DNA of 64,000 nt, taken from positions 310,001-374,000 of the forward strand of contig WGMB01000010.1 of the NCBI GenBank assembly GCA_016125275.1, in the 5' to 3' direction. The stretch comes from Acidobacteriota bacterium. Its GTDB lineage: Bacteria; Acidobacteriota; Terriglobia; Bryobacterales; UBA6623. Within the stretch, counting starts at the first letter, position 1, and every line of letters starts with the position of its first letter. Shown here in pieces: positions 11,992 through 24,726 of the stretch. A model generated the notes under the pieces. It was given only the letters and a program-made list of their open reading frames with translations. It was not told the origin of the DNA and searched no databases. Both the position numbers and the translations under genes were made by a program.

Positions 11992-13542
11992 CTACTCGAC
12001 GGGGCCGCCGCCTTCTTCACCCGGATCCAGGTGCCGGCGGTTGCGGCCATCCGGCGCGTCGGCCAGGTAAGGGAAGGCCGTGCGGTAGGCGGCGTCATTC
12101 ACGTTCACGCCGTCGCCGAGGCTGTTGTTGGGAAAGCGGTTGAGGCTCTCGCCCGCGGCGTCCGTGGTCAGCACGCCGCCCACGCCAACTCGCAAGACGA
12201 TGTCGACGACGTCGTCAAACAGCCGCCGTCCGTTGGGGTAGCCCGCCGCGTCGCCGGCGATCAGCCCTAGGCGGCTGGCGCTTTCGGGCGGCGTCGCCGG
12301 GACGCCGGTGTTCAGCCGCAACAAGTCAGCGACCGGGCCCGCGGGAGTTCCCTCGGCGGCGATCGGAGCGGCGTAGGTCACCAACGGCAGCAGGTCCGCG
12401 CGGGGGCCTGCGGGAACCGTCAGCGCGCCGCCGTAGAGCGCTTCGACGATCTTCACGATCGGCGGATCGAGGAAGAAGTCGGCAAAGGCCGAATCGCCGC
12501 TCGGATGCGACATCGAGAAGCGGTCCTTGGAGCCGATGCCGATGATCAGCTCATTGATCAGCGGATTGCCCATGCGTTGCACCTGGCGGAAGGGGCCCTT
12601 GGAGACGCCCCAGGGGAACACTCGATCCCGGGCGCGAGAGGTGGTTGCCCAAACGCCGATCGTGGCCGCCGGCGACGTGGCTCGCTCGACGCGACCGGTG
12701 GAGGTCAGCATCTCGATCGGGATCTCCAACGCGATCGCGTTGACCGCGTAGCCGGAGACGGTATCGCTGGCGGCGTTGGCGTGGGCGCTGTCCTCTTCCT
12801 CCGTCAGCACGCCGGGTACGCCGCTGGCGAGGGTGCGAAAGTTGGCTGTGTCAAAGGCCGCTCCCAAGTCGATCCAGAAGGGATCGTCCACCGTGCCGGC
12901 AAAGACCTTCAAGCCTTCGGGCGTCTGGTAGGTGGCTTGTTCGAACAGGGCAGCGTAGTCCATGGTCCGCGGACCGGCGTTGCCCGGAACGGCGTAGAAG
13001 GGGCCGCCGTCGGCGTTCATCAGGTCCATGGCCTGTCCTTGTCCCGGGCCGCGCAGCATCGTGACAGTGTAGTTCTGGATCTGGTTGAGGCCGGGGTTAT
13101 CGAAGCTACGGATCTGCGGCGGGACGACCAGAGTGTTGGTACCAGGCGCGAAGGCGCCCTCGTCCCCGATGCCGGCGACGGCGGTATAGACGCCGGGCAG
13201 TCGGTAGTCGGTTCGGAAACGGAACTGGAAGGTGATGTCTTCCTTGGCGTCGTGGTCGTTGTCGATCTTGATCTCGTACATGATCTCGGGATCGAACGGG
13301 AACAGCGTCGGGCCGTTGGCGGGCTCCAGCAGGGGATCGACGCAAAGGATCAGGGTGACGTGGGACGGCTGCTGCTGCGCCGTGGAGTCGGAATAGCTCA
13401 CGAAGGCGTAGACATCGGTGATGTCCGCCTTGTGGTCGAGGGCCGTGATGGGCGCCTCGCGATGGTTTGCGGCGTCTGCCGACGCCGCCAGCGACAGCGC
13501 CAGGGCGCTGATCGCCGCGAGATTCCAGGTCTTTCTACTCAT
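11992..13542 (-). CDS. DUF4331 family secreted protein
   Basis: A 516-residue protein with a signal peptide (MSRKTWNLAAISALALSLAA), then the family-defining ANHREAPITALDHKADITDV with VYAFVSY. It also has an extended beta-rich region and near the C-terminus DVVDIVLRVGVGGVL. This matches DUF4331, a family of exported proteins of unknown function common in Acidobacteriota and Bacteroidota. The start follows AAGGAG at 4-5 bp spacing, and that ribosome binding site lies within a perfect hairpin (separate entry). It lies in the module headed by an anti-sigma factor. Confidence 0.88.
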   Translation of the reverse strand: MSRKTWNLAAISALALSLAASADAANHREAPITALDHKADITDVYAFVSYSDSTAQQQPSHVTLILCVDPLLEPANGPTLFPFDPEIMYEIKIDNDHDAKEDITFQFRFRTDYRLPGVYTAVAGIGDEGAFAPGTNTLVVPPQIRSFDNPGLNQIQNYTVTMLRGPGQGQAMDLMNADGGPFYAVPGNAGPRTMDYAALFEQATYQTPEGLKVFAGTVDDPFWIDLGAAFDTANFRTLASGVPGVLTEEEDSAHANAASDTVSGYAVNAIALEIPIEMLTSTGRVERATSPAATIGVWATTSRARDRVFPWGVSKGPFRQVQRMGNPLINELIIGIGSKDRFSMSHPSGDSAFADFFLDPPIVKIVEALYGGALTVPAGPRADLLPLVTYAAPIAAEGTPAGPVADLLRLNTGVPATPPESASRLGLIAGDAAGYPNGRRLFDDVVDIVLRVGVGGVLTTDAAGESLNRFPNNSLGDGVNVNDAAYRTAFPYLADAPDGRNRRHLDPGEEGGGPVE

Positions 13543-22027: not shown

Positions 22028-22241
22028 GACCTTTTTTGCAAGATTCTTTCGCGGAGCCCTCCAGGGGAATCGTTTCAGTCACTTCTCCACTTCTTGTCGG
22101 CGGATCGAGACGCCGCTGCGCTACCTTGTGTGCTTGTGAAGGAGTGCGTAACCGAGTCCGCCGTCCCGACGAACTATTTTTCCAGTGGGTGCGGTTTCTG
22201 CGGGATCGGTGACGCTTGGCGGCTGGCGGGGGCCATCTTCG

Positions 22242-22841
22242 GTGAGCGTTGAAAAGTGGCGCGACACTCCAGCGGCTACGGCCGAGCCGAGTCGGCTGGA
22301 GGGTCTGATGCAGAAGTACCAGCAGGCGGATCCGGTGGCGACCGCGGAGCTGGTACGGACGCTATCGCCCATGCTGCTGCGGTTTTTGGCCGGTCCCATA
22401 CAGACCCGGGCGCATGCGGAGGACATGCTGCAGGAGTGTTGGTTGCGCGTCCACAAAGCTCGTCATACCTACAGGCCGGGCTCGCCGGTCTTGCCGTGGA
22501 TCTTCGCCATCGCCCGGTACACGAGGGTGGACGCCTATCGCCGGCGCAGCTCGATCGACCGCCGGGAGCTGCCGTCGGAAGACTTGGAGACTGCCGCGCC
22601 CGGCGCAGCCGAGCCGGAACCGTCCACTGGGCTGGACCTGTGGCGGTTGGTGGGTGAGTTGCCCGACAGCCAGCAAGAAGTCGTCAAGCTGCTTAAGGTT
22701 TCCGGGATGAGCCTCGAAGAAGTCGCCCGGGCCACCGGCGGTACGGTCGGTTCCGTCAAGCAGAAGGCGCATCGCGCCTACCGCAAGTTGCGCGAGATGC
22801 TCGAGCAGAGAGGTTTTCCCGGCGGGGGAGGCGCCCGCTAG
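22242..22841 (+). CDS. Sigma-70 family RNA polymerase sigma factor
   Basis: A 199-residue ECF-like sigma factor. Region 2 covers LMQKYQQADPVATAELVRTL to HAEDMLQECWLRVHKARHTY and WIFAIARYTRVDAYRRR. Region 4 has ELPDSQQEVVKLLKVSGMSL with EEVARATGGTVGSVKQKAHR. The GTG at 22242 is chosen; a GTG at 22185 would add 19 residues of low similarity. The downstream gene 3 bp later encodes a membrane anti-sigma factor, so the pair forms one signalling unit. The roughly 250 bp between the DksA promoter and this start show nothing else I can name. Confidence 0.85.
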   Translation: MSVEKWRDTPAATAEPSRLEGLMQKYQQADPVATAELVRTLSPMLLRFLAGPIQTRAHAEDMLQECWLRVHKARHTYRPGSPVLPWIFAIARYTRVDAYRRRSSIDRRELPSEDLETAAPGAAEPEPSTGLDLWRLVGELPDSQQEVVKLLKVSGMSLEEVARATGGTVGSVKQKAHRAYRKLREMLEQRGFPGGGGAR

Positions 22842-22843
22842 CG

Positions 22844-23650
22844 ATGCACGATTGCGAATCGATCGCCCAGTTTCTCGAGCGGGCCGGCGCCGCTGAAAGA
22901 GCCGCGCCTCCGGAGCCGATCCGCGCGCATCTGGAGCAGTGCCCCCATTGCCGCGAGCTGTGGCGGTTCATGGCGGACGCCGAACCGGCGGCGCTGACTC
23001 CCCAAGCCGAGGAGCGCATTACCCAGACCTTGTTGGGCTCTTTGCAGGCCGTCCGCCCGCTGCCTTCGCGCACGATGATCGCACTGGCCTTCATGGCCGT
23101 CTTTCTGGCGGTCTCCGCCCTGACGGTGGCGCTCGTGGGCTGGAGCTCGGCCCAGGCCATGACGACGCTGCAGTTGCTCGGAATGCTGGCTGCCATTCTG
23201 GTGTCGGCCGGCCTCACCGGCTTCTGGCTGAGCGGAGAGATGGCTCCCGGGGAAAAGCGTTGGACGGGGCCGGGCGGGCTGTGTGCGGGCTCGCTGGCGG
23301 CGTTGGGGACGTTGATCCTGGTGTTGTTCCCGTGGGAAGCCCCGCCGGGATGGCTGGCGATCAGCATCAAGTGTTTTCGGGCCGGATTCGTGCTGTCGCT
23401 GCCCGCGGTTGCGCCGTTGGTCTGGCTGCTGCGGCGGGGCTTCCCGCTGTCCTGGGGAGCGGTGGGCGCCGGCGCGGGCTTGCTGGCAGGGATGGTCGGC
23501 TTTCTGATGCTCCACATGGAGTGCCGGTTCTATAGCGCGCCGCACATCGTGCTGGGACACCTGACGGCTCCGCTGGCCGCCGCCGGCGTCGGCTACGCGC
23601 TCGGCAAGGTCATCGAGGCCTATCAGCGGTCCAGGGCGGCCGAGGCTTGA
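22844..23650 (+). CDS. Membrane anti-sigma factor with zinc-finger N-terminus
   Basis: A 268-residue protein. The N-terminal 60 residues contain HDCESIAQFLERAG and IRAHLEQCPHCRELW, a zf-HC2-like zinc-binding anti-sigma motif. Six hydrophobic helices follow (for example IALAFMAVFLAVSALTVALV), resembling the DUF1109/NrsF multi-pass class. Only 2 bp separate it from the sigma gene, so it is very likely that sigma factor's inhibitor. The signal it senses is unknown. It ends just before the selenoprotein gene, which may belong to the same transcript and hints at redox or envelope stress. Confidence 0.8.
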   Translation: MHDCESIAQFLERAGAAERAAPPEPIRAHLEQCPHCRELWRFMADAEPAALTPQAEERITQTLLGSLQAVRPLPSRTMIALAFMAVFLAVSALTVALVGWSSAQAMTTLQLLGMLAAILVSAGLTGFWLSGEMAPGEKRWTGPGGLCAGSLAALGTLILVLFPWEAPPGWLAISIKCFRAGFVLSLPAVAPLVWLLRRGFPLSWGAVGAGAGLLAGMVGFLMLHMECRFYSAPHIVLGHLTAPLAAAGVGYALGKVIEAYQRSRAAEA

Positions 23651-23676
23651 AAGCGCCTCCTATACTGAGGTTTCCG

Positions 23677-24726
23677 ATGCGGCGTCTCCTCCTGCTGGGC
23701 GGGCTCTTGGTCCTGACGATGAACGCGGCGGGACAGGGTCCTGCAGTTGCTACCGGACCCGCTGTCGGCGAGAGGATCCCGAGTATCTCCGCGGTCGATC
23801 AAGACGGCCGCGAGCGCGACTTCGACAGTTTGAAGGGGCCGAACGGGCTGCTCCTGCTGTTCCACCGTTCGGCGGACTGGTGACCGTACTGCAAGGGCCA
23901 ACTGGTTCAGTTGGAGAGAAAGCGCAAGGATCTCGAGGAGCAGGGCGTCCGCCTGGCGGCGATCAGCTTCGATCCGCCGGCCGTGCTCAGGTCCTTTGCT
24001 GATCGCGCCGGCATCGGCTATCCGCTGTTGTCGGACCCGGATTCAAAGATCATCCGGGCCTTCGGCATCCTAAATACGTCCGTGCCGCAGGACCACGAGT
24101 TCTACGGCATTCCGAACCCCGGCGAGTATCTGGTCAACGCGGACGGGACGGTCCGTGCGAAGTTCTTCGAGAACAACATTCGCGAACGCTTCACCGCCGG
24201 CCGCGTGCTGGTTCGGGAGCTCCACATTGCGGGCCGGGCCGCTGAGCAGAGCGTGGAGACCGACCATCTGGAACTGACATCTTGGGCGAGCGACCAAGTC
24301 CTGCGCGGCGGCAACCGGGTCGCTCTGGGCTTGGATATCGCCCTGGGGCCGAAGATGCACGTCTACGCGCCGGGCGTCAAAGGCTACATCGCTGTCGATT
24401 GGGAGATGGAGCAGACGCCCGGGCTCGAGAGCTTTCCTGTCGAGTACCCCGATCCGGAGAGCCTGCACCTGCCGGCGATCGGCGAGACCGTTCCGGTCTA
24501 CCAGGGCTCCGTGCGCTTCCTGCGGGACGTCATGATCGGCCAGCCCGATCAGATCGAGCATCTGCTCGGCGAGGACGGTAAGCTTCTGCTGCGGGGGACG
24601 TTCCGCTATCAGGCCTGTGACGACAAGGTGTGTTATCTGCCGCAGACCGTCGAGCTGGAGTGGCGCCTGGACTTCGAACAGCACGATCGCCAACGCGCGC
24701 CTGAAGAGATTCGGCGGCCGCGATAA
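23677..24726 (+). CDS. Selenoprotein: redoxin with in-frame UGA plus DsbD-like domain
   Basis: The frame from ATG 23677 to the stop at 24724-24726 is broken only by TGA at 23881-23883. Reading that codon as selenocysteine gives a 349-residue protein with HRSADWUPYCKGQLVQLE. U69 then takes the first cysteine position of the CxxC active site of AhpC/TSA-type redoxins and C72 is kept. Before it are a signal peptide (MRRLLLLGGLLVLTMNAAG) and the redoxin start; after it are VRLAAISFDPPAVLRSFADR and NPGEYLVNADGTVRAKFF. Residues about 215-340 resemble the DsbD N-terminal domain, with FRYQACDDKVCYLPQ (C314, C319). A perfect hairpin at SECIS distance follows the UGA. Selenocysteine in acidobacterial redoxins is plausible from known selenoproteomes. 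The protein probably acts in the periplasm on peroxides or disulfides. Confidence 0.88.
23881..23914 (+). promoter_or_regulatory. UGA (Sec) codon and SECIS-like hairpin
   Basis: The TGA at 23881-23883 is followed by CCAACTG (23898-23904), loop GTT, CAGTTGG (23908-23914), a perfect 7 bp stem. The apical loop starts 22 nt after the UGA and its first base is G. Both fit the bacterial SECIS rule (loop about 16-37 nt from the UGA, guanosine in the first two loop positions). This is the signal bound by SelB. Confidence 0.85.

Follow-up and report, generated by a model that had tools for sequence, protein, structure and literature searches.

A redoxin joined to a DsbD-alpha domain and encoded across an in-frame UGA in Acidobacteriota: a probable selenoprotein and candidate envelope thiol-disulfide reductase

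A recent review (2026) catalogues, among bacterial selenoproteins, a UxxC Prx-like thiol:disulfide oxidoreductase represented by WP_010940744.1 and a "Redoxin family protein", both assigned to PF00578/PF08534 (PMC13188914, Table 1). The protein described here is encoded in a window of 64,000 nucleotides from an Acidobacteriota bacterium (GCA_016125275.1, contig WGMB01000010.1, positions 310,001 to 374,000 of the forward strand), and it shares both the Pfam domain and the UxxC motif with these entries. The catalogued proteins are entered under one redoxin domain, whereas the window protein adds a DsbD-alpha domain with a Cx4C cysteine pair, a fusion that is absent from the review's catalogue (PMC13188914). 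From the comparisons presented below, we consider the gene to be almost certainly a genuine selenoprotein gene whose UGA is decoded as selenocysteine (Sec). The fuller reading, in which this selenoprotein would act as an envelope thiol-disulfide reductase equipped with its own electron-feeding DsbD-alpha module, we hold with a probability of roughly 0.6.

The reading frame (Table 1) contains a single UGA and is otherwise open. As the first-pass annotation had claimed, this codon falls at the first active-site position of the redoxin (RSADWUPYC, centre WUPYC), and the protein similarity it had reported on both sides of the UGA is borne out by AhpC-TSA and DsbD_N matches that each exceed the Pfam curated cut-off (93.5 bits against a cut-off of 26 for AhpC-TSA). 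The window protein thereby combines a UxxC motif with a PF00578 match above cut-off. Ordinary gene calling would cut the frame at the internal UGA, which is to say at its active site. The N-terminus resembles a signal peptide and is modelled with low confidence (pLDDT 59-66); judged from the sequence, the 349-residue protein is probably exported.

Table 1. Features of the selenoprotein gene and its upstream neighbours (window coordinates)
Feature	Coordinates	Strand	Detail and evidence
ECF sigma factor gene	22185..22841	+	Sigma70_r2/r4_2; context, not generally conserved
NrsF-type anti-sigma factor gene	22844..23650	+	PF06532; 26 nt before selenoprotein ATG
Shine-Dalgarno-like GAGG	23667..23670	+	6 nt 5' of ATG; direct sequence read
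Probable selenoprotein ORF	23677..24726	+	349 aa; ATG 23677, UGA codon 69, TAA 24724-24726
Signal-peptide-like N-terminus MRRLLLLGGLLVLTMNAAG	23677..23733	+	hydrophobic; translation
AhpC/TSA-type redoxin domain, residues 30-161	23764..24159	+	PF00578 E 1.2e-26; Foldseek
In-frame UGA, predicted selenocysteine residue 69	23881..23883	+	codon read and homologues
Cys72 of UxxC motif	23890..23892	+	invariant in 179/179
SECIS stem-loop CCAACTG GTT CAGTTGG	23898..23914	+	family-wide conservation, covariation
DsbD-alpha (DsbD_N) domain, residues 212-325	24310..24651	+	PF11412 E 1.3e-9; Foldseek
C314-x4-C319 pair in YQACDDKVCY	24616..24633	+	homologue alignment

Among 179 distinct proteins of two-domain length, for which the codon was read in the DNA of the fetched loci, position 69 is UGA in 149 and Cys in 30 (24 TGC, 6 TGT), a ratio that is not an unbiased frequency because the fetched loci favoured top matches of a UGA query. 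For the UGA count we relied on the genome searches, since a contig scan by peptide pattern, in which one pattern has Cys at residue 69, is biased to Cys forms. Among 257 genomes of the order, the full-length protein turned up in numerous genera, typically with a single internal TGA, and sampling spread across the phylum placed it in further families as well; the UGA forms extend over 18 or more family-level groups of Acidobacteriota. Beyond the UGA the window gene is under purifying selection relative to its nearest relative, L029 (dN 0.28 versus dS 1.11), and in a tree built with FastTree the supported branches carry no fewer than 13 switches between Sec and Cys. Several related sequences were met along the way. 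Diverged paralogues of the two-domain selenoprotein, about 30% identical, are found at L124, L125 (RSAVWUPYC) and further loci of the phylum, and some genomes carry at least two UGA copies. A separate group of single-domain UGA redoxins (YRGYWUPxCNSE(L/F)R; L121, L204, L205, L206 and L207) is also about 30% identical to the query, and a contig titled as a Bifidobacterium breve MAG (L079) holds a Cys homologue of acidobacterial type, the MAG being likely misbinned or mislabelled. Recoding of UAG, a candidate raised by an internal TAG listed in three relatives (G136, G191 and G243), was rejected on reading the DNA: the TAG in G136, G134 and G191 is an ordinary stop at the C-terminal end, and residue 69 is TGC or TGA.

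According to the published bSECIS rule, the stem has 4-16 bp, the loop has 3-9 nt with a G in its first two positions and lies 16-37 nt after the UGA, and the MFE is -7.5 or lower (PMC13188914). The window hairpin agrees with this rule in full: it has a 7-bp stem and a GTT loop with G first, 21 nt separate the UGA from the loop, which thus starts at the 22nd nt, and the 44-nt fold reaches -9.5 kcal/mol. This much of the earlier SECIS claim stands; the weight it had placed on the single copy does not, because dinucleotide shuffles of the window hairpin fold equally well (z = 0.06) and a perfect 7-bp stem arises in 15.6% of synonymous recodings drawn from local codon usage. Rfam gave no match on the window at the gathering threshold. 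As the single copy is not beyond chance, the reality of the hairpin rests on its conservation across the family, and here the data are of a different order. All 149 UGA forms have a G in the first two loop positions, and 99% have 45-nt folds at or below -7.5. The G-in-loop agreement is partly a by-product of a conserved Val codon, which forms the loop in 147/149 UGA forms versus 12/30 Cys forms. A 5-bp core of the stem is intact in 142 of the 149 UGA forms versus 3 of the 30 Cys forms, with 35% expected from codon usage, and when the comparison is confined to forms with the pattern QLx[EQ]L, the core is intact in 68/72 UGA versus 2/9 Cys forms (Fisher 3e-6).

The stem also shows the marks of compensation. 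In UGA forms the third base of the Gln codon pairs with the first base of the Leu codon, as CAA/TTG or CAG/CTG, an association with a Fisher value of 7e-17 that is uncorrected for relatedness. Compensated double changes are seen in three of the six stem pairs and slid controls fail to reproduce them; double-sided compensated cells number 23 versus 8.5 in shuffles, and none of 500 shuffles was as high. Relatedness is corrected for in the independent Sec/Cys contrasts on the tree: the hairpin tracks the codon in 11-12 of 13, and the reverse occurs in none (sign test, p about 0.001). On the strength of these sequence comparisons, we take the hairpin to be a true SECIS element across the family. 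The same data bear on the possibility of a broken gene, with the UGA arising by nonsense mutation or from an error in sequencing. Viewed by itself, the window would allow this, as the frame is open apart from a single internal stop, but a nonsense mutation is excluded because the same UGA is common to 149 distinct homologues, the sequence downstream is under purifying selection and the hairpin covaries. We regard a broken gene as so improbable that it can practically be neglected. The homologue comparison called for by the first-pass annotation therefore came out in its favour: the UGA is no lone nonsense mutation, and the hairpin is broken in most Cys forms.

The genome from which the window derives (7.55 Mb, 97.6% complete), whose nearest relatives among named ones are uncultured Bryobacterales of the Acidobacteriota, encodes the whole set of Sec genes that the same annotation had asked for, with SelA at 495 bits, SelB at 315 bits, SelD at 309 bits and, for selC, a tRNA-Sec of 72 bits with the anticodon UCA (TCA in DNA). 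Across the order, a strong tRNA-Sec is found in 91 of 100 genomes with a UGA form versus 109 of 157 others (p 5e-5). The remaining 9 of the 100 lack a convincing tRNA-Sec, and a looser search of eight of these nine also returned none. These genomes are mostly fragmented, but G090, G158 and G010 are 99%, 92% and 91% complete, respectively; assembly gaps are the likely cause of the absence. Three genomes with Cys forms only (G183, G190 and G193) are without tRNA-Sec, while other Cys-form genomes retain it. The window itself contains, at 12949-13045, a 97-nt ARAGORN tRNA-Pro(cgg) of odd length, which is probably a false positive; Rfam detects no tRNA anywhere in the 64,000 nucleotides. Elsewhere in the genome there is a second UGA gene (L262:1423-1938, in the region of G000:C14:105215-105526), which encodes an AhpC/TSA protein with the motif PKAFTGGU, that is, a PxxxTxxU peroxiredoxin-type selenoprotein candidate, and whose downstream fold has a z of -1.67.

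Read-through of UGA at a low level is known in general, and it is conceivable that the codon is read as another residue (e.g. Trp) without selenium, or that the locus yields two separate products, the second from an ORF with a TTG start at 23911. We judge both very improbable. The codons of the homologues are only UGA or TGC/TGT and never Trp, the hairpin tracks the UGA, the Sec machinery is complete, and a downstream ORF would begin inside the helix that follows the active site.

AlphaFold models the whole protein as two domains with high confidence (pLDDT 94.4, pTM 0.88), and Foldseek matches the whole model, via its first domain, to Prx/AhpE/Bcp and ResA folds. The second domain modelled alone has a pLDDT of 94.1, and 10 of its 10 PDB matches at E <= 0.001 are DsbD-alpha or the N-terminal domain of ScsB, the DsbD-alpha complexes 1z5y, 1jzd and 1vrs included. 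Its two cysteines (codons 24616-24618 for C314 and 24631-24633 for C319) are invariant in the C-terminal alignment (n=56), and Cx4C is found in 176/179 two-domain homologues. Pfam, Foldseek and the conserved pair thus uphold the DsbD-like C-terminal domain that had been proposed for this protein.

With these components, it is reasonable to postulate the following course of events. SelB, carrying Sec-tRNA(UCA), would insert Sec at the UGA under the direction of the stem-loop, and the full 349-residue protein would be exported with its N-terminal Prx/ResA-type domain, bearing the WUPYC centre, and its C-terminal DsbD-alpha domain, bearing Cx4C. A membrane DsbD would reduce C314/C319, for which the genome has one complete DsbD (alpha, TM and gamma; L268); the C314/C319 pair may then reduce a U69-C72 selenenylsulfide in cis, and U69 in turn would reduce external disulfides or related oxidised thiols. 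The direction of electron flow, the export and the substrate in this scheme are those that we infer to be most likely. To the more specific proposal of a self-contained envelope seleno-thiol relay, in which the in-chain DsbD-alpha domain would reduce the Sec redoxin in cis and which would be widespread in Acidobacteriota, we give even odds.

The DsbD-alpha domain reduces CcmG-type domains in trans, and electrons pass from it to domains of the CcmG and DsbC types. The first-pass annotation had proposed that the selenocysteine may pass electrons to the internal cysteine pair; in this reading they would leave the Sec centre for C314/C319, which would then serve other partners. The conservation of the two centres within a single chain speaks for this direction, but DsbD-alpha is the donor in the known systems, including the complexes 1z5y and 1jzd returned by the fold search. 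By analogy with DsbD-alpha and CcmG/DsbC the opposite flow is more likely, and we find the earlier direction improbable.

The main rival to a thiol-disulfide reductase is the same selenoprotein acting chiefly as a Sec peroxidase, with U69 reducing peroxides, C72 resolving and the DsbD-alpha domain regenerating the centre. The fold of the N-terminal domain does rank closest to peroxiredoxins and AhpE/Bcp, and PF00578 is its top family; a WUPYC centre with a vicinal Cys, however, is a thioredoxin/glutaredoxin-type, thiol-disulfide oxidoreductase arrangement. Moreover, the peroxiredoxin signature PxxxT/SxxC(U) was not found in the window protein, which has F62 at -7 and lacks the T/S because an invariant A66 occupies position -3 of U69. 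The gene neighbourhood can be read in both ways. The window copy sits behind an ECF sigma/NrsF pair, which would be in keeping with a peroxidase, but the Caulobacter SigF/NrsF system, acting via conserved NrsF cysteines, responds to chromate and cadmium and not to the tested peroxides (PMC3511200). To carry a chromate or cadmium role over to the window locus by analogy would be a guess. The order sigma-nrsF-redoxin recurs at one locus with the Cys form from the same family (L036), and nrsF alone occurs at L141; in a clustering of neighbouring ORFs, the sigma/nrsF linkage is absent from most loci and there is no other conserved partner. No conserved operon partner, then, hints at a substrate. 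On balance we consider a predominantly peroxidatic role unlikely and favour the thiol-disulfide reductase.

Acidobacteriota are an important soil phylum about which little is known, and in their genomes ordinary gene calling would cut a widespread selenoprotein of this kind at its active site. The repeated exchange of Sec and Cys, accompanied by gain or loss of the hairpin, amounts to a natural experiment on Sec retention; if at least 13 exchanges did take place along with the SECIS element, a comparison of matched Sec and Cys orthologues can reveal what the enzyme gains from Sec. Furthermore, many UxxC redoxins are uncharacterised, and for this one the fused DsbD-alpha domain offers a concrete electron path that can be tested.

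In the open literature searched, no paper on a redoxin/DsbD-alpha fusion with selenocysteine in Acidobacteria was found, and a prior mention, or a single family member already deposited, is possible. NCBIfam gave 17 matches for the window protein, all scoring far below the respective curated cut-off, and the other 58 family members scanned (59 in total) match the same general families. The SelL-related redox protein NF040769 and the ResA-like WAxxUGC protein NF041054 share the redoxin fold and are weak matches (51.5 versus a cut-off of 120, and 26.3 versus 300, respectively). An older metagenomic fusion, Prx-like 3/Unknown_3, likewise joins a selenoprotein redoxin to a further domain that contains Cys, but it has three conserved Cys including a CxxC, whereas in the window protein only C314/C319, a Cx4C, are conserved. 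TsoB (rhodanese/DsbD fusion-like, NF045694) is also a selenoprotein involving DsbD-like sequence; unlike the window protein, its DsbD-like part is the membrane region and its motif is UxxxxU. NF045694 has no match in the window protein and matches the genome's own DsbD over residues 194-454. The C-terminal domain described here shares its fold and its Cys pair with the alpha domain of DsbD and the N-terminal domain of ScsB, the pair motif being YQGCADAGFCYPP in E. coli DsbD versus YQACDDKVCYLP in the window protein. DsbD differs in its Cx5C spacing and in having DsbD_TM and a gamma thioredoxin domain, neither of which (PF02683 for the former) is matched by Pfam in the window protein. The protein had initially been put forward as a new selenoprotein. 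UxxC redoxin selenoproteins of PF00578/PF08534 are already known; what is new is the joining of these two domains and the wide occurrence of this architecture across the phylum.
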